NCBI RefSeq assembly: GCF_030268685.1
Contig: NZ_BSRQ01000010.1
Span: forward strand, 62,001 to 126,000
Reading direction: 5' to 3'
Source of the DNA: Microtetraspora sp. NBRC 13810
GTDB lineage: Bacteria; Actinomycetota; Actinomycetes; Streptosporangiales; Streptosporangiaceae
Length of the DNA: 64,000 nucleotides
Position 1 is the stretch's first letter, and every line of letters starts with the position of its first letter. Shown piece by piece: positions 10,291-56,072 of the stretch. The notes under the pieces were generated by a model that worked only from the letters and a program-made list of their open reading frames with translations, was not told where the DNA came from and made no database searches. The translations under genes and the position numbers were made by a program.

Positions 10291-10372
10291 TGGGAGACTG
10301 TCAGCGTGTGACGGGCCCCGCCCGTCGTCGCAGCGCCCGATGATGACAGCCCCGAGTCGTCAGGATGCCACC

Positions 10373-11614
10373 ATGCTGAAGCCCGGTCGGGTCCAGGAGG
10401 AGATTCGCCGGCGCAACCTGGGTACGTTGCTCCGGCACGTGCACCTGGGCGGCCCCCTCTCCCGGGCGGTGCTGGCCGAGCGGATGGGACTCAACCGCAG
10501 CACGATCATGGCGCTGACCGCCGAGCTGACCTCCGCCGGACTGGTCCGCGAGGAGCTCCCCGGGGACACCGGCAGGGCGGGCCGCCCCTCGCTGGTGGTG
10601 CGGGCGGAGTCCGAGCGGGTGTACGTGCTGGCCTTCGACGTCCGGGTGGACCGGCTGGTCGCGGCCAGGGTCGGGCTGGGCGGGACGATCCTGGACCGCA
10701 GGGAGGCGGTCCGGGCCCGCGCCGGGGCCGACCTGCACGACGTGGTCGAGGTGCTCGCCGGGTTCGCCCGGGAGATGCACGGGGAGGCGCCCCCAGGGCC
10801 GGTGTGCGCCGGGGTCGGCGCGGCCTACTGCGGCATGATCAGGCGCGGCGACGGGATGGTGCGCTTCGGGCCGAACATGGGATGGGTGGACCAGGCGTTC
10901 GGCACCGAGCTGGGGCGGCGGCTGGGCCTCGGGCTGCCGGTGGCGGTGGGCAACGAGGCCCACCTGGGCGCGCTCGCCGAGCACGAGCGCGGCGCGGGCA
11001 TCGGCTTCGGCAACCTCATCTACCTGCACGGGGACGTCGGCGTCGGCGGCGGGATCATCGTCGGTGGCAGGCTGCTCGACGGGGACGGCGGCTACGGCTG
11101 CGAGGTCGGGCACATGATGGTCAACCCCTACGACGGGCGGCCCTGCGGGTGCGGCTCGCGGGGCTGCCTGGAGGCGGAGGTCGGCGAGCAGGCCCTGATC
11201 GACGCCGCCGGCCGGTCCGGCGAGCTGACCGGCCGCGAGGGCGTGCGGGCCGTCGTCCGGGCCGCCGGCGAGGGCGACCTCGCGGCCCGGGACGCGCTGT
11301 GCCGGATCGGCGACTGGCTCGGCATCGGCGTGGCCAACCTGATCAACCTCTTCAACCCCGGTCTCGTCATCTTCGGCGGGATGCTGCGCGAGGTCTACCC
11401 GGGCTCGGCCGCCCAGGTGCACGAGCGGGTGGCCGCCAACACACTGGTGATCTCCCGCGAGGTACGGCTCCGCACCTCCGCACTCGGCGACGACGCCACC
11501 CTCGTCGGCGCCGCCGAACTCGCCTTCGCCGACCTGCTGGCCGGCCCCCTGGAGACGCTCGCCCTGCTGACGCCGCCCCCGGTCCCCGAACGGCGGGCGC
11601 TCACCCGCCCGTAG
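10373..11614 (+). CDS. ROK family transcriptional repressor
   Basis: Sugar-responsive regulator of the ROK (repressor, ORF, kinase) family. The N-terminal 70 residues form a MarR-like winged helix (VLAERMGLNRSTIMALTAEL). The ROK domain follows, with EVGHMMV carrying the conserved metal-binding histidine and the zinc motif CGCGSRGCLE. An intact GNEAHLGALAE segment and a glycine-rich GDVGVGGGI segment are also visible. ATG at 10373 is preferred over ATG 10340 because AGGA lies seven bases ahead of it. No sugar transporter or glycosidase is next to it, so its target is not evident. Whether it still phosphorylates sugar is unclear. Confidence 0.88.
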   Translation: MLKPGRVQEEIRRRNLGTLLRHVHLGGPLSRAVLAERMGLNRSTIMALTAELTSAGLVREELPGDTGRAGRPSLVVRAESERVYVLAFDVRVDRLVAARVGLGGTILDRREAVRARAGADLHDVVEVLAGFAREMHGEAPPGPVCAGVGAAYCGMIRRGDGMVRFGPNMGWVDQAFGTELGRRLGLGLPVAVGNEAHLGALAEHERGAGIGFGNLIYLHGDVGVGGGIIVGGRLLDGDGGYGCEVGHMMVNPYDGRPCGCGSRGCLEAEVGEQALIDAAGRSGELTGREGVRAVVRAAGEGDLAARDALCRIGDWLGIGVANLINLFNPGLVIFGGMLREVYPGSAAQVHERVAANTLVISREVRLRTSALGDDATLVGAAELAFADLLAGPLETLALLTPPPVPERRALTRP

Positions 11615-46664: not shown

Positions 46665-48569
46665 ATGGGGCTCGGAAAGAAGTGGGATCCGTTCGCCAGA
46701 GCCGTCGAGGACCTGGCCGAATACGATTTCACCGGTCAATCACCGGTACTCCAGGACGTCGTGGCCCAGCTGCGCGACGTACTCGAACAGATGGTACGGG
46801 TACAGGCGGGCGAGGTGCGCATCGTCGCCCTCGGCCAGTCGGGTTCGATGAAGTCCACCATGCTCCGGCTGCTGCTGGGCTCGGACTTCCTGCGGGTCGG
46901 GCCGGGCGCCGTCACCGTGGCGGCCACCGAACTGCGGCTCACCCAGGCGGACGACGCCGGCCGTACGCCGGAGATCCGGGTGCTCACCCTGACCGAGGAG
47001 GGCGCCCGCCGCCGGGCCTGCGCGCTGCTCGACCTCACCGAGGACGACCCGCGCCCGCTGACGGAGCTGCTGACCGTCGCCCATCCGAACCAGAAGCTGG
47101 TGACCGCGATGGCGGAGGCCGCCCGGACCCTCGGGTACGGCGCCGCCTACGACCTGGCCGGTTACCTGGACAGGGGCGGCGCCCTCACCTTCGACGCGGC
47201 CGGCACCGGCACCGAGCTGGTCGCCCGGGTGACCGTCGGGCTGCCCGTCTCGCGGGACGTGTGGAACCTCGACTGGGCGGGGACGCGTTCGGTCGTCGTG
47301 GTGGACACTCCCGGCAAACGAGCCGGCGGGCCGCTCGAAGACGTGATCATCCAGGAGATGCGGGACCGCGCGCACATCGCCCTGCTGACCATGGCGTGCA
47401 GCGCCGGCACGTCGTTCGCGGTGCCGCCGGCGCCGCCCGGCTCGCATCCGGTGCTGGTGGCCACCAAGCTCGACGCCGTCGACAACCCCGCCAACGCCAA
47501 CGAGCTGAAGACGCTCGACGGCGCCGTGGCGAGCAACCTCGGCCAGCTCGGCGGCAACGGCAGGCAGGCCAGGATCGTGGCCGTCTGCGGCCCGTGGGCG
47601 ATGGGCGACCAGGAGGCGTGGGCGAGGTTCGACCCCGACAACCCGCACGCCTGGCACACGGCCGAGCTCAAGCGCGAGGGCTGGCGGGAGGCGCGGCGCA
47701 CGGCGACCGAGCCTGGACCGCTCCAGGAGGCGGTGTTCGCCGCGCTGGACGACGGCGGGGTCGGCCAGCTCCAGCGGGTGATCGCCGAGCTGTCCGCCCA
47801 GGATCCCGGCCGCCTCGACGAGGAGGAGCTCGACCGGCTGATCGCCCTCGGCCTGAAGCTGGTGGACGACGCGCTCGAACGGCTGCCCGACCCGGGCGAG
47901 CAGGAGGCGGTGGCCGCCAGGCAGCGCGACCGGGCGGCCAAGGATCCCACGCCGATCGCCGAGCTGCGCCAGATCGCGGCCAAGGTGTCCATCGACGCCG
48001 TGTACGGCACGTCCACCTGGCGGGCGGTCCGCCAGGCGTTCCAGCACCGGCAGGACCAGTGGCTCGGCCCGGCCAAGGACGTCGGGGCCGCGCTCGCCGG
48101 GCTCGACTTCGACCGCCTGGCCCACGAGGCGGTGAACGACGCCGGCGAACTGCTGAACACCGAGCTGGCGGCCTGGCAGCTGGAGTACACGACGGCCGAG
48201 TTCGGCGCTCCCGGCTGGCGGCGGCCGCCCGGCCTGGACGAGGCGACCGTGTCCCAGGCGGCCGGGCAGTTCGCCCGGCTGGCCCGCCAGCTCGTGGACC
48301 GGCTCACCCTGGGCGCGGGCGAGGACCTCACCCCCGACTGGCTCACCTTCCGCAAGGTCGCGAGGACCAGGGACGAGCTGGCCAAGCTGCTGGAACGCCT
48401 GCTGCTCGCGCTCTTCGAGGCCACGGCGGTACGGGCCAGGACCGACCTGATCGAGTTCTTCAAGAACCCGAAGAACGACCTGGACGACTCCGAGCTGCCC
48501 TTCCTGTTCGACGACATCCGGCGGGACCTGCTGAAGCTGGCGGAGGCGAGATCCGACGGTGCCGACTGA
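46665..48569 (+). CDS. Dynamin-like/SrfC-type GTPase
   Basis: A 634-residue large GTPase and first gene of a six-gene operon. G1 is ALGQSGSMKST (Lys63), G3 is VVVDTPGKR (Asp214), G4 is VATKLD (Lys268, Asp270). The first 50 residues are helical (LQDVVAQLRDVLEQMV) and the last 350 form a long helical region, as in dynamin-like proteins and the SrfC virulence-factor family. Such proteins hydrolyse GTP while assembling on membranes or filaments. There is no transmembrane segment. Its last 11 bases overlap the next gene, which encodes an SrfB-like ATPase, the partner with which SrfC proteins are normally encoded. ATG 46665 follows GGGAACGAAGG. Confidence 0.82.
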   Translation: MGLGKKWDPFARAVEDLAEYDFTGQSPVLQDVVAQLRDVLEQMVRVQAGEVRIVALGQSGSMKSTMLRLLLGSDFLRVGPGAVTVAATELRLTQADDAGRTPEIRVLTLTEEGARRRACALLDLTEDDPRPLTELLTVAHPNQKLVTAMAEAARTLGYGAAYDLAGYLDRGGALTFDAAGTGTELVARVTVGLPVSRDVWNLDWAGTRSVVVVDTPGKRAGGPLEDVIIQEMRDRAHIALLTMACSAGTSFAVPPAPPGSHPVLVATKLDAVDNPANANELKTLDGAVASNLGQLGGNGRQARIVAVCGPWAMGDQEAWARFDPDNPHAWHTAELKREGWREARRTATEPGPLQEAVFAALDDGGVGQLQRVIAELSAQDPGRLDEEELDRLIALGLKLVDDALERLPDPGEQEAVAARQRDRAAKDPTPIAELRQIAAKVSIDAVYGTSTWRAVRQAFQHRQDQWLGPAKDVGAALAGLDFDRLAHEAVNDAGELLNTELAAWQLEYTTAEFGAPGWRRPPGLDEATVSQAAGQFARLARQLVDRLTLGAGEDLTPDWLTFRKVARTRDELAKLLERLLLALFEATAVRARTDLIEFFKNPKNDLDDSELPFLFDDIRRDLLKLAEARSDGAD

Positions 48570-51366
48570 GCCTCCCGCGCTGGAACTCGCCCACGCGCCC
48601 GGGGAGGGGTGGCTGCGCCTGTCCGCCGGCACGGTGCCGGGCCGGATCGAGCGGGTGGACCTGCTCGACGGCGCCCGCGCCGTGGCGACCACCGGGATCC
48701 GGCCGCCGCAGGACGGTTCCGCGCACGACCTCGACCTGGCCCTGACCCCGTGGGACGCCGTCCTGGCCCGGCCGACCGTGGTCGTCTACTACCGCCGCGA
48801 CCAGCCGTCGGTGTCGGCCCCGTCCCCGCTGACCCGCGCCGCCTTCCGCCTTCTGCCCCACCAGATCAAGGACCTCACCATGACGCCCGAAGACCGTTCC
48901 GGCCAACCGGACCTGGACGAACGCGACCTCGTCTCCGCGACCTTCGACTTCGGCACCAGCCGCGCGGTGTGCGCCATCACCAACAACCGTGCGATCTACA
49001 TGGACCGCGGCACCCTGCCGGCGGACGGCCTGGCGCGGGCCGTCGCGGTCGCCCACCTCTCCCTCGACCCGGACGCCGACCAGGGGCTGGAGATCGACCG
49101 GCGCACCGCCCGCCGTCCGCAGGAGGGGGCGGCGGCCTGGCGTGAGGTGCTGGGCACGCCGCCGCTGGAGGTCAACCACCTGCAGTCCACCAGGGTCCGC
49201 AGCAGCGACCTGATCGTCGCCGACGGGCGGGCGGAGTTCGCCGACGAGAGCGTGGGCACCCAGCAGGCCCGGCGGCGCGGCGTGAAGCGCTATCTCGTCC
49301 AGCTCAAGGAGGAGGTCGCCGACACCGGCATGTCCGGCGAGAAGCTCTTCCACCAGGTGTACCAGCGTTTCATCGACCTGGTCGCCAAGGAGGTCGGCCT
49401 GGGCAAGGACGAGCGGATCAGCCGGGTGAACATCACCTATCCGACGAAGCTGCCGCCGGACCGCCGCCAGGAGCTGCTCGCCGTGGTGCGGGACCTGGCG
49501 CCGCGGGTGGAGATGACGATCGACGAGTCGGCCGCGGCGGCGGGGTTCTTCCTGCTGCGCAGGTTCGGCGCGGACTCGCTGCTCGGCGTGGAGGCGTTCA
49601 AGCTGCACGCCCGCTGCCCGGAGGGGCCGCGCGCCTGGGAGGCGCCGGAGCTGTGGGCGAAGGCCCGGCAGTGGCACGAGAACCTGCTGGTCATCGACGT
49701 GGGCGGCGGCACCACCGACTGCGCGCTGGTCAAGGCCGCGATCGTGGACGCCACGCCGGCCGAGGCGGGCGACTCCCGGGGGCGGTTCTACCGGTTGCAG
49801 CCGGAGGTGCTCGCCTCCGGCGGCCGGATGCACCTGGGCGGTGACCTGCTCACGCTGCACATCTTCCAGGCGCTCAAGCGGAAGCTGAACGTCCCGGACG
49901 AGATCACCAAGTTCGAGGGCCTCCAGGGGCAGGAGGCGGAGCAGCGGCGGGCCGCCTTCGACGCCCTGTGGCGGGCCGCGGAGGAGGTCAAGCACCAGGG
50001 GCTGAAGAAGGAGAACGCCCGCGACGTCACCGTCCGGGTGGCCGGGGGCCAGGGGCAGGACGCGGGTCCCGGCGGGGCGCGCCGGATCGAGGTGGGCCTG
50101 CCCGCCCAGGCGGCGGCAGAGGGCACGGAGACGGTCGTCACCGCCGCCGAGCTGACCGCGCTCATGGACAACGCCGTGGACCAGATCGCCGCGCTGGCGG
50201 CGGGGATCGCGCACGGCGGGCTGCACACGTCGGCGCCGGCCGCGGCGGAGTCGGCTCAGTCGGTGGACCACGTGCTGTTCTCCGGCGGGTCGCTGCTGTC
50301 GGGGTACCTGCGCCGCCGGATCGAGGAGTCGCTGCGGGCGAGGTTCGAGGAGGAGGGCCTCGACGCCACGTTCGAGGTGGTGTTCGACCCGGCGTACTGC
50401 AAGACCGGGACCGCGCTCGGCGGCATGTACCTGAACGCGGTGGCCGACTTCGCGGTCGCGCCGGAGGACCCGCTGGTGTGCGACCAGCTGGTCGCCGGGC
50501 GGTCGTACTTCGACGTGGACTCCTCCAACCTGCGGGTCAACCTGGCAGCCGACTTCCACATCCGGCAGGACACCGCCTCCGTCCGCCGCGAGCCCGTCTT
50601 CCGCAGGGGGCTGCACCTGTACCCGGACGGCAGCGGCAACGCCTACGCCGAGAGTGCCGCCTTCCCGGTCTCCTCCAAGATCGAGATCCACCGGTACGAC
50701 GTCTCCTTCGGCCAGGCGCACCAGTCCGACGGCGACACCCAGTGGGCGGCCTCGACCAGGGTCAGCCGGGAGGAGGCCAGGCGGCTGCGCGAGGCGGGCG
50801 TACAGGTGCGGTTCGAGATCGACCAGGAGGAGCGGGTCACCATGCTGCTGTGCAAGGGGGTGCCCGGCTGGCGGCTGGAGGGACGGCCGCAGCCGCTGCC
50901 CGCCGGCCTGCCCGCGCTGGTGGACCGGACCGGCCCGCAGGACGCCCCGGCGCTCGCGGTGTCCCTCTACGTGGACGTCTACCAGCCGGGGATCGGCGTG
51001 CAACGGCAGAAGCCGCTGCTGGCGGCGGGTCTCCCGGTCCCGCCGGGCGGCCTGGTCCGGCGGGTGTCCGGCAGGACGCTGTACTGGCGCCGCCCGGACG
51101 AGGCGTGGACCCCGCCGGGAGGCGCCGGCGCGGAGAACGCCCGGCGGCCCGACTTCGAGGTGTTCATGGAGCTCCCCGCGGACGCCCTGTGGCTGTCGGT
51201 GGACCAGGGTGGCGCCCTGCGCCTGCACGACCAGCGCCCGGAACGGCCCGGGGTGCCCGACCACATGGACCTGCTCACCGCTCCCCCGGGGTCGGTCTTC
51301 CAGCAGGTTCTCAGTTCGGGCACGCGCTACGAGAAGACGAAGGACCCGTTCAGTGGAGTTCACTAG
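48559..51366 (+). CDS. SrfB/Hsp70-like actin-fold ATPase
   Basis: A 935-residue protein with an actin/Hsp70 ATPase core. Phosphate 1 is TFDFGTSRAVCAI (Asp130), phosphate 2 is LLVIDVGGGTTDCAL (Asp380), and the adenosine motif is HVLFSGGSLLSGYL (Gly576-Gly577). About 110 residues precede the core and about 300 follow it, without an Hsp70 substrate-binding domain; this matches the SrfB family rather than DnaK. The DLVAKEVGL and ITYPTKLPPDRRQELL segments are typical of that group. GTG 48559 overlaps the GTPase gene by 11 bases. An ATP-driven scaffold or remodelling partner for the GTPase is the likely role. MTPEDRS at residue 108 is an alternative internal start. Confidence 0.82.
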   Translation: MPTEPPALELAHAPGEGWLRLSAGTVPGRIERVDLLDGARAVATTGIRPPQDGSAHDLDLALTPWDAVLARPTVVVYYRRDQPSVSAPSPLTRAAFRLLPHQIKDLTMTPEDRSGQPDLDERDLVSATFDFGTSRAVCAITNNRAIYMDRGTLPADGLARAVAVAHLSLDPDADQGLEIDRRTARRPQEGAAAWREVLGTPPLEVNHLQSTRVRSSDLIVADGRAEFADESVGTQQARRRGVKRYLVQLKEEVADTGMSGEKLFHQVYQRFIDLVAKEVGLGKDERISRVNITYPTKLPPDRRQELLAVVRDLAPRVEMTIDESAAAAGFFLLRRFGADSLLGVEAFKLHARCPEGPRAWEAPELWAKARQWHENLLVIDVGGGTTDCALVKAAIVDATPAEAGDSRGRFYRLQPEVLASGGRMHLGGDLLTLHIFQALKRKLNVPDEITKFEGLQGQEAEQRRAAFDALWRAAEEVKHQGLKKENARDVTVRVAGGQGQDAGPGGARRIEVGLPAQAAAEGTETVVTAAELTALMDNAVDQIAALAAGIAHGGLHTSAPAAAESAQSVDHVLFSGGSLLSGYLRRRIEESLRARFEEEGLDATFEVVFDPAYCKTGTALGGMYLNAVADFAVAPEDPLVCDQLVAGRSYFDVDSSNLRVNLAADFHIRQDTASVRREPVFRRGLHLYPDGSGNAYAESAAFPVSSKIEIHRYDVSFGQAHQSDGDTQWAASTRVSREEARRLREAGVQVRFEIDQEERVTMLLCKGVPGWRLEGRPQPLPAGLPALVDRTGPQDAPALAVSLYVDVYQPGIGVQRQKPLLAAGLPVPPGGLVRRVSGRTLYWRRPDEAWTPPGGAGAENARRPDFEVFMELPADALWLSVDQGGALRLHDQRPERPGVPDHMDLLTAPPGSVFQQVLSSGTRYEKTKDPFSGVH

Positions 51367-52186
51367 GAACGACCCCGGCGGCGACCCCGCCGACGAGCTC
51401 ATCGGGCAGCTCGCGGCCGACCTGTCGGTGATCACGGGCCGGGCGCTGCGGCCCGGCGACTTCCGCGCCCGGCGGGACGGCGCGCTCGCCCAGGTGCTCG
51501 GCGCCATGGTCACCGTGGACCCCCGGCGCCGTCAGACCGCCTGCCGGCTGCTCGCGGAGTGGATCAGGGCGGGCTCGCTGGAGTCCGCGGGACCGCCGCA
51601 GACGGCGGGACCGATGGAGTTCGAGATCCCGACGCTGGTCGTCGGCGAGCGGGTGGTCCCCGGGCTGCGCCTGGTCCCGCCGCCGCCGGGCGGCCGCCCG
51701 GTGGAGACGCTGGAGCGGCTGCTCCCCGCGGCGGCGGCGCTGGCCGGCGCGATGCCCGAGGTGGTGCAGGTGGGACCGGGCAGCACCGAGCGCTCGCCCG
51801 GCTGGGTGGCCAGGCTGCGGCTGCTGGCCCGGCTGGACGAGATCGGCGGCCCCGGGGCGGACCGGGGCGAATGGGCGGTGGCGGCGCACGAGGCCGTCGC
51901 GTCGGTGCACGTGCCGGACGCGGAACCGGGCAGCGTCTGGGCCGCCCTGGTGGACGCGGTGCGCACGCACGCCCAGGCGGCGTTGCAGGAACTGGGCGAG
52001 GAGGTCAAGGGCGACCTGCTGCGCCGCGACGACGAGTTCGGCGAGATCGTCGACATGCGGCTCAGCGCGATCCTGGACGGCGGGCCGGTGCCCGGCAGAG
52101 TGCTCCAGATCGTACGGCTGCCGCGTCGCCGGGGCGGCAGGACGCTGCGCGGCGCGGTGCTGTTCGCGGGAGGAGGAGCGGCATGA
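51353..52186 (+). CDS. Unknown protein of the GTPase-ATPase operon
   Basis: A 277-residue soluble protein without recognised domains. The N-terminal third is helical (ADELIGQLAADLSVITGRAL), a proline-rich centre follows (LRLVPPPPGGRPVETLERLLPAAAALAG), and the C-terminal part is helical again with ELGEEVKGDLLRRDDEFGEIVDM and a final basic strand (VLQIVRLPRRRGGRTLRGAVLF). Position after SrfC- and SrfB-like genes suggests it stands where SrfA-type third components stand, but I see no sequence proof. GTG 51353 overlaps the previous gene by 14 bases; the stop overlaps the VWA gene (ATGA). It is presumably a structural or adaptor subunit. Confidence 0.75.
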   Translation: MEFTRNDPGGDPADELIGQLAADLSVITGRALRPGDFRARRDGALAQVLGAMVTVDPRRRQTACRLLAEWIRAGSLESAGPPQTAGPMEFEIPTLVVGERVVPGLRLVPPPPGGRPVETLERLLPAAAALAGAMPEVVQVGPGSTERSPGWVARLRLLARLDEIGGPGADRGEWAVAAHEAVASVHVPDAEPGSVWAALVDAVRTHAQAALQELGEEVKGDLLRRDDEFGEIVDMRLSAILDGGPVPGRVLQIVRLPRRRGGRTLRGAVLFAGGGAA

Positions 52187-52851
52187 CCGTCTTTCCGATC
52201 TACGTGCTGGCGGACCGGTCGGCGTCGATGGCGACCATGGCCGGCACGGTCACCGCCATCGACGCGGTGAACACCGTCATCAGGGAGCTGATCGACGAGC
52301 TGTCCCGTGATCCCACCGTGCAGAAGCGGGCCAGGCTCGGCGTGATCTCCTTCTCCGAGGACGCCAGCGTGGAGCTGCCGCTGACCCGGCTGACCTCGGC
52401 CACCGTCTCGCCCACGCTGCTGGCCTCGGGGGGCACGTCGTTCGCGGCGGCCTTCGAGACGACGGCGCGGGCCGTCGCCGCCGACCTGCCCGCCCTGGAG
52501 GCGCCGCAGAACCCGATGGTCTTCATGCTGACCGACGGCCGCACCAACGCCTCCCGGGACTCCCGGCGCGGCTGGCGGGCCGAGCACCGGGCGCTGCTGG
52601 AGGCCGCCGGGCCCGGCCTCCGGGTCCAGGTCATCCCGTTCGGTTTCGGGAAGGTCGACGCGGCGGCGCTCGCGGAGATCGCCTCCGATCCCACCGCGGC
52701 GTACCTCGCCGGGCAGAACGACACCCCCGCCGAGGCGATCGAGCGGTTCGCCGAGCTGATCTTCGGTTCGGTGACCTCCAGCGTCGCCTACGGCGAACCC
52801 CTCACCGTCCCTCCCCCGGGCAGCCGGGTCCTCCCCTTCGACGAGATCTGA
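52183..52851 (+). CDS. VWA domain protein, TerY-like
   Basis: A 222-residue von Willebrand factor A domain. The MIDAS metal site is complete: Asp11-x-Ser13-x-Ser15 (ADRSASM), Thr85 (SGGTSF) and Asp118 (MLTDGR). The single-domain form, the FPIYVLADRSASM start and the PFGFGKVD segment resemble TerY proteins of tellurite/stress systems. It would bind a partner protein through a bound divalent ion. ATG 52183 overlaps the previous stop (ATGA), and its own stop shares one base with the next start (TGATG). The PP2C and kinase genes that follow complete the combination known as the TerY-P triad. Confidence 0.85.
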   Translation: MTVFPIYVLADRSASMATMAGTVTAIDAVNTVIRELIDELSRDPTVQKRARLGVISFSEDASVELPLTRLTSATVSPTLLASGGTSFAAAFETTARAVAADLPALEAPQNPMVFMLTDGRTNASRDSRRGWRAEHRALLEAAGPGLRVQVIPFGFGKVDAAALAEIASDPTAAYLAGQNDTPAEAIERFAELIFGSVTSSVAYGEPLTVPPPGSRVLPFDEI

Positions 52852-53702
52852 TGATGTCCGAGAATCCGACGATCGACGTGATGAACCGGCCCCTGACCGA
52901 GCCCGGCCTCTACCGCGGCAACGCGATGCCGATCCCGCCCCTGCTCGCCTACGACGGCGGGCAGGCGGGCTCGGTCACCGTGCGGGCGGGATGGGCCGCC
53001 GCCGAACGCCGCCGCCCGGTGGACAACTGCAACGACTCGGTGACGGTGTGGAGCGACCCCGAGGAGACCGTGGTGGTGCTGGCGGTCGCCGACGGGGTCG
53101 GCGCGGGCGAGAGCGCGGGCCGCGCGGCCAGGGCGGCGACCGCCCTGGCCGCGCGCGCCTTCCACCACCACTGGCACAACGCCGGGCGGCGCGACCTGGA
53201 GAACGTGGTCCGGTCGGCGATCGGCGACCTGGACGCCTCGCTCCGTCAGCAGGGGTCGCGGAGCGGCTCCCTCGACCCCGGCTACCGGACGACCGTGGTG
53301 CTGGCCGCCGTCCCCGCCGTCGTGCAGCCGGGCGGCAGCGTCCGGGCCGCGGTCGGGCGGGTGGGGGACTCCATGGCCTGGCTGGTCCGGCCGGGCGGCC
53401 TGGAGCCGGTCTTCGGCGCCCGCGATCCCGCCGGCGGGACGCCCGCCCTGCCCGGCCACTACCAGTTGCTGGAGTCGCGGAGCCTGGTCCTGTCCGACGG
53501 CGAGGTGCTCGCCCTGACCACGGACGGCCTGGCGGCCGGCGGCCCGGAGGAGCGGGCGGCGCCGTACCTCGCCGACATGTGGGCCGCCCCGCCCGCCCCG
53601 CTGGAGTTCCTGCGCACGCTCACCGTGCGCCGCAACGACCGCGACGACGACCGGGCCGCCGCGGTCGCCTGGCTCGGCCACTACGAGATCAGGAATGCCT
53701 GA
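52851..53702 (+). CDS. PP2C-type serine/threonine phosphatase
   Basis: A 283-residue PPM/PP2C phosphatase. Metal-binding acidic residues are visible in LAVADGVGAGESAG (Asp81), LTTDGLAAGG (Asp225) and RDDDRAAAVAW (Asp267), with VGRVGDSMAWLV near residue 171. The N-terminal ERRRPVDNCNDSV takes the place of the usual RxxNED segment. ATG 52851 shares its A with the stop of the VWA gene, implying tight coupling. It should reverse phosphorylation by the kinase-like protein encoded next. No sensor domain is attached. Confidence 0.88.
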   Translation: MMSENPTIDVMNRPLTEPGLYRGNAMPIPPLLAYDGGQAGSVTVRAGWAAAERRRPVDNCNDSVTVWSDPEETVVVLAVADGVGAGESAGRAARAATALAARAFHHHWHNAGRRDLENVVRSAIGDLDASLRQQGSRSGSLDPGYRTTVVLAAVPAVVQPGGSVRAAVGRVGDSMAWLVRPGGLEPVFGARDPAGGTPALPGHYQLLESRSLVLSDGEVLALTTDGLAAGGPEERAAPYLADMWAAPPAPLEFLRTLTVRRNDRDDDRAAAVAWLGHYEIRNA

Positions 53703-53741
53703 CCGCGTGCCCCGCCGCCGTGGTCCCCGCGGGAGCGTCCG

Positions 53742-55397
53742 GTGATGGAGTCCGCGGGGGTCGCGCTGGGGTGGTGGCTGCCGGCGGGGGTGGTGGTGGC
53801 GCAGGTGGCGGCCGAGCCGCTGCGCGGGTGGGTGGAGCGGAACCTCGCGGCTGGCCGTACGGACCGGCTGGCCTCGGCGGAGCTGCGTCGCAGGCTGCGG
53901 GCCCGCCCCGCCGAGGCGGACCGCGACGTGCTCCAGGTGGGGGCCGGCGATCTGCGGCTGCGCGCCCGGCGGGCCCGCCGCAAGGCCGCGCTCGGCTGGG
54001 CGGTGCTGGCGGCGGCCTGGCTCGGCGCGCAGGCGGCCGTGCTGCACTGGCAGGTCAACGACGCGTGGCTGCCCTGGCTGGAGCGCGGGCCGTTCGTCCT
54101 CGCCGCCGCGGGCGCGGCCGTGGCGTGCTGGCTGGGGCTGTGGTGGGCGCTCGGCCGGGCCGGCGCCACGGCGGCCTTCGACCGGGCCTTCGCGCAGGTG
54201 ACGTACGCGGGGGCGGCGGGTCTCGCGGCGGCCCTGACCTTCGCCCTCGTCCTGGACACCCCCCTGACGCCGTCCACCGCGGCCGCGGCGCTGCTGATCA
54301 CGCTCTCCCCGCTGGTCCGGCGGATCATCGTGACGGTGGCCAGGCCGCGGCGGGCGGCGCTGCCGCCGGAGGTCGAGGAGGTCCTCACCCGCACCGCGCC
54401 CCCACCCGCCGTCGCCACCGCCGGCCCCACCAGGGAGATGCCCGTCCCCGGGCGCGGCGAGGCACGCGCGGACACCGCCGCGCACCCGCACGACGAGACG
54501 CCGGCGAAGCGGACGCCGCCGCCGAGGCGGGGCGGCGGGCCGGCGCCGGGGGATCCGCGGACGCCGGCGCGGCAACTGGACGTGGTGGCGCTCGCGGAGC
54601 TGACGGTGGGCGCTTCGCTGCAACGGGGCAGGCAGTACATCCGGCACGCCACCGTGCCGGGGTCGGACGAGAAGGTGGTGTTCAAGCGGTTCGCCGAGCC
54701 CGGGGCGAAGGAGCGCAACCCGGCGCGCCCGCTGGCCCCCTACCGGCGGCTGCTGTCCCGGGCGGGCACGCTGTCCATGGCCGAACGGGCGCTGCTCGAC
54801 CGGGTCGCCCTGTGGCCGCACGCCGTCGTGGCCGAGAACGGGCAGGCGGTCGGCGTGCTGTACCGGATGATCACGCCGCCTTTCCTGCTCGCCTCGGGCG
54901 GCGCGCAGACGGGCGACTACCTGCACGCCGACGACCCCGCCCACAGCGGCTGCCAGGTCGTCTCGGCGACCCAGCGCGGCCAGGTGCTGCTGGACGTGCT
55001 CCGCGCCCACGAGATGCTGCACGATCTCGGCCTGGCGCACGGCGACACCTGCTGGAAGAACTTCGTCTACGGCGTGCAGGGCGGGCGCGGCCGGGGCCAG
55101 CTCATCGACATCGACGGCGTCACGGCGGTGGACGACGCCAAGCCGCTGCTGCTGCACCAGCCCGACTGGGACGTCGGCGGCACCCCCATCGAGCGGGACC
55201 GGCGGCGGCTGGCGCTGCTGGTGGCCCGGCTGGCCACCCCGGAGATCCGGTACGACTCCTGGTCGATCCCCGTCGAGGGCGTGTCCTGGTTCGACCCGTC
55301 GATCTCCTGGCTGGCCGGGGAGGCGCTGTCCGATCCCAAGAAGGGGACGACCGCCCGGCTGCGGGCCGCCCTGGAGGACTCCCTCGCCGGCGCGTAG
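53742..55397 (+). CDS. Membrane-anchored kinase-like protein (TerY-P triad kinase)
   Basis: A 551-residue protein. Five hydrophobic segments in the first 200 residues (for example LGWAVLAAAWLGAQAAVLHW and FVLAAAGAAVACWLGLWWAL) anchor it in the membrane. A Pro/Arg-rich linker (about 215-290) leads to a kinase-like domain with Lys315 (VVFKRF), the catalytic loop HGDTCWKNF (Asp435, Asn440) and the metal site LIDIDG (Asp456, Asp458) in place of DFG. The catalytic residues are thus retained in an atypical form, as in the TerY-P kinase group. GTG 53742 or ATG 53745 starts it, 39 bases after the PP2C stop. It ends the operon and meets a bidirectional hairpin. Confidence 0.82.
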   Translation: MMESAGVALGWWLPAGVVVAQVAAEPLRGWVERNLAAGRTDRLASAELRRRLRARPAEADRDVLQVGAGDLRLRARRARRKAALGWAVLAAAWLGAQAAVLHWQVNDAWLPWLERGPFVLAAAGAAVACWLGLWWALGRAGATAAFDRAFAQVTYAGAAGLAAALTFALVLDTPLTPSTAAAALLITLSPLVRRIIVTVARPRRAALPPEVEEVLTRTAPPPAVATAGPTREMPVPGRGEARADTAAHPHDETPAKRTPPPRRGGGPAPGDPRTPARQLDVVALAELTVGASLQRGRQYIRHATVPGSDEKVVFKRFAEPGAKERNPARPLAPYRRLLSRAGTLSMAERALLDRVALWPHAVVAENGQAVGVLYRMITPPFLLASGGAQTGDYLHADDPAHSGCQVVSATQRGQVLLDVLRAHEMLHDLGLAHGDTCWKNFVYGVQGGRGRGQLIDIDGVTAVDDAKPLLLHQPDWDVGGTPIERDRRRLALLVARLATPEIRYDSWSIPVEGVSWFDPSISWLAGEALSDPKKGTTARLRAALEDSLAGA

Positions 55398-55462
55398 CCG
55401 CCGGGCGGGCGGACCGGCGCGCCCGGCGGGCTCCACGCGGTGTCGGCGGGTGGTCACACACG

Positions 55463-55496
55463 ACGGTCGCGGGCCCCACCGGGGACCCGCGACCGT
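55463..55496. terminator. Bidirectional hairpin terminator
   Basis: ACGGTCGCGGG (55463-55473) pairs with CCCGCGACCGT (55486-55496), and CCCC/GGGG extends the stem inside. It lies between the convergent kinase and DUF1772 genes. Confidence 0.85.
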
Positions 55497-55506
55497 GTGC
55501 CGCAGG

Positions 55507-55995
55507 TCAGGAGACCAGCAGCGCCCAGCACAGGCAGACGAACCCGGCGAGGGACACCAGGGCCCGCATGACGTTCCACCGGTTCCAGGTCGCCTCGAAG
55601 CTCGCCCGCACCGCCGCGGGGTCGGCGATGCCGCTCGGCTCACCGGCCGCGTCGAGCCGGTTGTTCAGCGGGATGTTGATCCCGAACGTGATGACCAGCG
55701 ACAGCACGTACAGCACGCAGCCGGCCACCACCGGGACCGACAGCCCCCGCCCGGCGGCCAGGTCGAGCACGATGACGGCGATCGCGAAGAGCGCGGCGCC
55801 CAGGAAGGCGATGAGGAACACGCCGTTCTGGATCGCCACGTTGATCCGCTGCATCACGTCGATGAAGACCCGGTCGCCCACCTTGCGCAGCCCGAGCATG
55901 ACCGAGCAGGCGTAGGCGTAGTAGAGCCCCGCGATCAGCCCCGTGGTGACCGTGGCGAGCATCAGCACCAGCTCGCGTAACGACTCCGATGTCAC
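55507..55995 (-). CDS. DUF1772 family membrane protein
   Basis: A 162-residue four-helix membrane protein of the DUF1772 (anthrone oxygenase-like) family. The first helix reads LMLATVTTGLIAGLYYAYACSVM, then the conserved FIDVMQRINVAIQNGVFLIAF, a third helix, and the motif ITFGINIPLNNRLD before the last helix. GTG 55995 with GGAGG ahead is the start. It is divergent from an AraC regulator. A second DUF1772 gene lies on the other side of that regulator at 57207. Some members of this fold act as small-molecule oxygenases in polyketide pathways; for stand-alone copies the role is unknown. Confidence 0.85.
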   Translation of the reverse strand: MTSESLRELVLMLATVTTGLIAGLYYAYACSVMLGLRKVGDRVFIDVMQRINVAIQNGVFLIAFLGAALFAIAVIVLDLAAGRGLSVPVVAGCVLYVLSLVITFGINIPLNNRLDAAGEPSGIADPAAVRASFEATWNRWNVMRALVSLAGFVCLCWALLVS

Positions 55996-56072
55996 TGTTC
56001 CTCCCAACAAGATCGCATTCTTACCCTAGGCCGGGAGGAGTGCGACTTTCCATAGCCGCAACGCTCACATCC

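Follow-up and report, generated by a model that had tools for sequence, protein, structure and literature searches.

Organization of the operon

The question raised by this locus is whether six adjoining genes of Microtetraspora sp. NBRC 13810, located at positions 46665-55397 of a 64,000-nucleotide stretch of contig NZ_BSRQ01000010.1 (the whole analysed stretch is referred to below as the window), encode one machine or two. Judged from sequence, the operon is composed of two modules: (i) a nucleoside triphosphatase (NTPase) cassette, g1-g3, and (ii) a TerY-P-type triad, g4-g6. In the reading that we prefer, to which we assign a probability of about 0.45, a conserved NTPase cassette would have been placed under a phosphorylation switch in this operon. 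A stronger result than this single join is that the cassette is conserved in other genomes, whereas the membrane and signalling genes next to it vary.

The six-gene operon is real and well formed. The coordinates of the six plus-strand open reading frames (ORFs; starts predicted) were re-confirmed; they give overlaps of 11, 14, 4 and 1 bases between neighbouring ORFs and a 39-base gap between g5 and g6, exactly as listed in the preliminary description of the locus. The genes are as follows (aa, amino acids):

46665..48569, + strand: g1, dynamin-type GTPase, cassette gene 1 (634 aa)
48559..51366, + strand: g2, putative SrfB-like/Hsp70-fold ATPase, cassette gene 2 (935 aa, GTG start)
51353..52186, + strand: g3, third cassette protein (277 aa, GTG start; conserved C-terminal part about residues 155-272)
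52183..52851, + strand: g4, stand-alone VWA (TerY-like) with a metal ion-dependent adhesion site (MIDAS) (222 aa)
52851..53702, + strand: g5, PP2C phosphatase (283 aa)
53742..55397, + strand: g6, predicted membrane protein kinase (551 aa; GTG start, next codon ATG)

The NTPase cassette

The g2 protein carries the actin/Hsp70 motifs ascribed to it earlier, i.e. DFGT at 130, DVGG at 380 (DVGGGTTD by reading) and SGGS at 575. It was aligned with seven relatives (alignment A1; 23-28% identity), and a profile of these seven, built without the window protein, finds g2 with E 7.2e-73 in three collinear segments that include the C-terminal end. The A1 profile, which contains both g2 and the relatives, picks up DnaK and BiP in the PDB.

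Outside the window, 23 distinct relatives of g2 were collected (L026-L039, L090-L094, L099, L100, and the cyanobacterial L040 and L041); the cassette of genome G260, which is both L004 and L094, was counted once, and L042-L044, with no visible third gene, were excluded from the cassette counts. Five loci were among the matches listed in a genome-collection scan with A1, and of these five L040 and L041 carry the cassette. All 23 loci have a large GTPase gene immediately before the ATPase gene (in L040 it is truncated where the contig ends), and 21 of them have a third gene immediately after it. The GTPase profile was built from 15 of the 23 loci and the third-gene profile from 17; of the six others, L090, L092, L099 and L100 match the latter, and L091 and L093 do not. 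None of the three cassette profiles had a match in 40 control windows of about 20 kb taken from the same contigs.

The other cassettes have the same gene order as the window and the same families for g2 and g3. Their proteins are longer, i.e. approximately 780-1010, 1041-1247 and 342-519 aa (ranges taken from ORFs not run on by open frame) versus 634, 935 and 277 aa in the window. The unit of GTPase, Hsp70-fold ATPase and third protein is conserved in actinobacteria and cyanobacteria, and g1-g3 are a divergent member of it, g2 and g3 being placed there by sequence and g1 by position and fold. Genome G260 encodes, close to its cassette (L004:6983-12864), an Hsp70-WD40 fusion protein and two more proteins of the Dynamin_N type.

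The third protein had been described as free of any recognised domain and as a possible specific adaptor. This view had to be abandoned: a third-gene profile from which g3 was excluded finds it with E 1.6e-7 when 2403 sequences are searched, whereas 2000 shuffled versions of g3 gave 0.041 at best; the homology is confined to the C-terminal 118 residues. With a first, smaller profile, g3 had scored 8.9 bits versus 6.9 for the best shuffle. Since it shares this C-terminal homology with the third genes of other loci, g3 is, on sequence grounds, a cassette component. A GrpE beta domain, suspected by eye in this region, had no Pfam match, and the region is explained by the third-gene homology. Structures predicted for g3 alone and for g2 with two relatives (pLDDT, the predicted confidence score, of 41 and 32, respectively) were too low in confidence to use.

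The g1 protein matches Pfam Dynamin_N (PF00350; E 2.8e-6, 27.9 bits, cut-off 27). The predicted GTPase motifs were all located: the P-loop GQSGSMKS at 57, including Lys63 (Met replaces the usual Walker A Gly before this residue), DTPG at 214 and TKLD at 267. As in the other cassettes, g1 sits directly upstream of the ATPase gene. Beyond its own genome no full-length relative was found at E up to 0.001 in two samples (60 relatives and 396 genomes of the phylum), each of which yielded one short partial match. The proposed likeness of g1 to SrfC comes down to position and fold, as neither g1 nor the four related GTPases tested (L026, L029, L041, L100) match PF10139 (SrfC).

A similar question arises for g2, which had been called SrfB-like. 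Of nine cassette ATPases compared with PF07520 (SrfB), eight match with E no higher than 0.1. One of the eight, that of L026, passes the cut-off, and HSP70 scores higher for this protein; all these matches are short, extending over about 70-140 residues in the region of the phosphate-binding motif. The g2 protein itself matches neither SrfB (no hit at E up to 1) nor HSP70. The name is thus justified through the relatives and not by a direct family match. We regard g2 as a probable SrfB-like/Hsp70-fold ATPase and do not claim membership of SrfABC.

The distribution of the cassette system is sporadic. Matches to g2 were obtained in 15/200 genomes of the order sample, 14/150 of the family sample and 4/197 of the class sample (overlapping samples, each including the genome of origin); in the order sample, therefore, 14 of the 199 other genomes carry a relative and none was detected in the remaining 185. 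The A1 profile matched 173 of 396 genomes of the phylum; among the matches listed, those beyond G000 and G260 were taken as DnaK from ORF length and matched region. Carriage by mobile elements was considered and rejected: tblastn gave no match for g2 in plasmids and phages, nor for g1, the kinase part of g6 or the L026 ATPase in plasmids, and the only relative found was a weak one on a viral contig (L085).

The VWA/PP2C/kinase triad

Profiles built without the window, and for g4 and g5 also family matches, identify g4-g6 as genes for a VWA protein with a MIDAS, a PP2C phosphatase and a kinase, as originally proposed. The g4 protein matches Pfam VWA (E 8.8e-12) and is found by the leave-window-out profile with E 1.3e-43; its MIDAS begins with DRSAS at 11, and the later T and D are present by reading. 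It is 35.9% identical, over 57% of the query, to TerY of Enterobacter plasmids, and actinobacterial VWA proteins are also similar. The g5 protein matches PP2C_2 (E 3.8e-18; leave-window-out profile, 5.1e-25), and its acidic PP2C residues were identified by reading.

No curated kinase family passes the cut-off for g6 (Kdo, E 0.13), but the expected motifs are in place (HGDTCWKN at 433 and DID at 456), and a profile of three other triad kinases, with the window excluded, finds it with E 6.9e-20 (31-33% identity to the kinases of G026, G033 and G630). The kinase domain extends over about residues 275-551 and is preceded by four hydrophobic segments at residues 83-199 (hydropathy). No zinc-ribbon family match was obtained, and the only cysteines, 129, 404 and 437, are not paired. 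Because g6 lacks a C-terminal zinc ribbon, we use the term triad-type, and not classical TerY-P, for g4-g6.

At five further loci, genes for VWA, PP2C and kinase form a unit that lacks the cassette, namely L075 (Streptomyces plasmid), L076 (Nonomuraea), L082, L083 and L084; in L075 and L076 the kinase assignment is based on motifs and the shared profile. At L083 (5659-14446) the triad is preceded by a gene for a coiled-coil-like membrane protein and followed by genes for a BrxC/BrxD-type ATPase (447 bits) and a DEAD/Cas3-like helicase, and the C-terminus of the kinase matches that of PglZ; this setting appears defence-like. The triads at L082:5476-9885 and L084:9360-15232 come after genes for two proteins, one small with a single hydrophobic segment, the other a coiled-coil-like membrane protein, a pair which by eye resembles ZorA/ZorB-type proteins.

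Neighbours of the cassettes and triads

We looked for the join of cassette and triad in the 14-20 kb covered at each locus (8 kb for L040). A complete triad was found beside none of the 23 other cassettes, and a cassette beside none of the five other triads. Conserved co-occurrence of the two parts, on which the preliminary description had staked its proposal, was therefore not seen for the full set; what did recur were single signalling partners, beside four of the 23 cassettes (L032, L090, L035 and L091). L032 and L090 carry a divergently transcribed PP2C gene whose product has an N-terminal hydrophobic segment (46% identity between the two), and a PP2C profile built independently of both proteins matched these 2/23 cassettes versus 0/40 control windows. 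At L035 a kinase-like protein with several hydrophobic segments is encoded directly downstream (APH, 1.5e-5), and at L091 VWA and Tubulin_2 proteins lie about 1.3 kb downstream of the cassette. The L091 VWA has two hydrophobic segments, and the whole arrangement (L091:6047-17438), in which it follows a GTPase and an SrfB-like ATPase, is similar to GTPase conflict systems of the tubulin/vWA type.

Triad loci L082, L083 and L084 share a small membrane protein, which is found again next to the PP2C of cassette L032 (E 1.6e-9 to that of L082). Going by this sequence match, we consider the L032 protein a direct bridge between cassette and triad loci.

A recurrent neighbour was a DUF4407 membrane protein, present beside 6/23 cassettes versus 0/40 controls; it is encoded upstream at L029, L093, L099 and L100 (Pfam) and at L031 and L094 (profile), and each of the five profile members was still found when left out. 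Its coordinates upstream of the cassette are L099:13443-17539 and L100:14071-16446. A CHAT protein is encoded beside the L032 cassette and a TIR protein near that of L099. The DUF4407, tubulin, CHAT, TIR, L035-type kinase and membrane-VWA profiles, all built from case proteins, had no match in the 40 controls. In Fisher tests the four signalling partners reached 0.015 and DUF4407 reached 0.0015, values which are indications only, because the categories were chosen post hoc and some of the loci are close relatives.

Relation to known systems

Kaur et al. (2020; PMC7159879) describe, as the third theme of GAP1-N2-type GTPase-centric conflict systems, actinobacterial GTPase neighbourhoods in which a PP2C and a stand-alone vWA accompany a catalytically active kinase that is fused either to a zinc ribbon or to transmembrane (TM) helices; further themes of these systems employ HSP70 and GrpE, or tubulin and vWA. 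The window operon is similar in that a kinase with predicted TM helices, a PP2C and a stand-alone vWA are linked to a GTPase gene. Unlike those systems, the six window proteins contain no GAP1 match (E up to 1), no FNIII family match and, with few cysteines, no zinc ribbons; the GTPase is of the dynamin type, and the Hsp70-fold ATPase and third protein complete a different core. Pfam holds GAP1 models.

TerY-P triads, according to PMC11090510, consist of adjacent genes for a TerY-like VWA with a MIDAS, a PP2C and a kinase, attached to varied systems, and Hsp70-like domains occur with TerY-P in Type III-A CoCoNuTs. The g4 VWA with its MIDAS and the adjacent g5 PP2C and g6 kinase correspond to this layout. 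They differ in the N-terminal hydrophobic segments of g6, which take the place of a C-terminal zinc ribbon or OB-fold, and in that no McrBC or nuclease family was matched in the window operon. The GTPase with TM-kinase, PP2C and vWA (PMC7159879) and the Hsp70-like domains with TerY-P (PMC11090510) are precedents for the switch logic.

SrfABC is reported to be a cytotoxic complex (PMC6950479). The SrfABC operon resembles the cassette in that a large ATPase with a similar core is encoded together with two further proteins; it differs in that g2 does not match SrfB and g1 does not match SrfC. We know of no triad associated with SrfABC. Our literature search covered the best-ranked papers, with most subscription journals outside it, and no paper was recognised in which TerY or a VWA/PP2C/kinase triad is linked with SrfB or SrfC, a result from which absence from print does not follow.

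Possible function of the operon

The phospho-switched NTPase model is plausible. In this model, g1-g3 would form a membrane-proximal assembly, in which the ATP cycle of g2, together with g3, might determine how g1 assembles or acts on the membrane. A cassette subunit or g4 would be phosphorylated by the membrane kinase g6 and dephosphorylated by g5, and the VWA protein g4 could recruit the cassette. In this way the assembly would be turned on or off by a signal from the envelope or from infection. The most likely role is a stress or conflict response rather than a housekeeping function; such a role is favoured because the distribution is sporadic and some relatives adjoin TIR, CHAT, tubulin/VWA and DUF4407 genes. 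Phage defence in particular is possible but weakly supported, by CHAT and TIR proteins beside single cassettes and by BrxC/D and a helicase beside one triad.

Several observations weigh against a switch of this kind. The full six-gene set was found only in this genome, from which selection on the join does not follow. The triad-kinase profile matches no cassette locus (0/23), and VWA is not enriched beside cassettes, because the general VWA profile matches controls too (2/40, versus a weak match at 1/23 cassettes). The small-membrane-protein profile also matches 2/40 controls weakly (E 5.5e-4 and 7.2e-4); the L035 kinase, tubulin, membrane-VWA, CHAT and TIR profiles each represent a single case protein, in categories chosen after looking. 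Within the operon, g2 sits on a very long branch (2.88) of a 21-row tree, where its position lacks support, and g1 is assigned to the cassette by position and fold because the cassette-GTPase profile (E 8.6e-6) scores it no better than generic dynamin (1e-5). The operon contains no recognised effector gene, and in PADLOC-DB 2.0.0 the six proteins found no convincing match (only MkoA, E 0.076, for g6).

An alternative, which we consider rather unlikely, is that two independent modules share the operon through a recent insertion, the triad regulating something else and the cassette working alone, as in the other genomes. Cassette and triad each stand alone elsewhere, the full join was absent from the stretches covered at both sets of loci, and VWA is not enriched beside cassettes. 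On the other hand, the 4-base g3/g4 overlap lies exactly at the module joint and, together with the 1-base g4/g5 overlap, suggests coupled translation, and the recurrence of PP2C beside two cassettes and the L032 bridge protein also speak against independence. Less probable still is an envelope or developmental device, in which dynamin/Hsp70-type membrane remodelling in hyphae or spores would be coupled by the triad to the growth state. The Dynamin_N fold, the hydrophobic segments of the kinase, the DUF4407 membrane partner and the VWA and tubulin-like protein at L091 would all suit such a device, but the failure to detect a g2 relative in the 185 order-sample genomes would be unusual for a developmental gene set, and a TIR gene next to one cassette and a CHAT gene next to another suggest conflict instead. 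It seems to us improbable that the cassette represents a relative, in actinobacteria, of the SrfABC cytotoxic complex, with the triad gating its release or activity: the SrfB matches of its ATPases and the cytotoxicity reported in PMC6950479 are set against the shortness of those matches, the unmatched g2, the missing SrfC match and the result that inspection by eye recognised no gene for secretion next to the window operon.

The phosphorylation switch may be part of something wider. We put forward, as a tentative and somewhat doubtful generalisation, that the cassettes are undescribed NTPase-driven conflict or envelope-stress machines of actinobacteria and cyanobacteria with interchangeable triggers (DUF4407, PP2C, membrane kinase, or VWA with tubulin), of which the window holds the full phospho-switch form. 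SrfB-type ATPases and their partners are reported to be widespread and are labelled, in the literature surveyed, by virulence, cytotoxicity and motility screens, not by mechanism. The combination of cassette and triad suggests how such GTPase/Hsp70 machines may be controlled, and the attached kinase, phosphatase and VWA protein offer a way to switch an SrfB-type machine and to find its partners. If true, the conflict or envelope-stress reading would give a first direct handle on the function of SrfB-type ATPases.

Other features of the window

In searches of Pfam and NCBIfam, no family passed the cut-off for g2, g3 or g6. Downstream of the operon lies the following element:

55445..55510, both strands: strong inverted repeat between the operon and the convergent ORF 55507-56010 (- strand)

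It folds on both strands (-43.9 and -40.8 kcal/mol; z -3.8 and -3.1), and a weaker hairpin is present at 55392-55445 (-37.4 kcal/mol, z -1.8). The bidirectional hairpin noted earlier is thus there. Neither hairpin has a run of T residues or was listed by the terminator scan, so the repeat is a plausible candidate for a bidirectional terminator 3' of the operon.

ARAGORN called a tRNA-Thr of 90 bases at 10640-10729 of the window, which is probably a false positive because it lies within the strongly biased coding ORF 10340-11614, and a tRNA-Arg, also of 90 bases, at 1576-1665.

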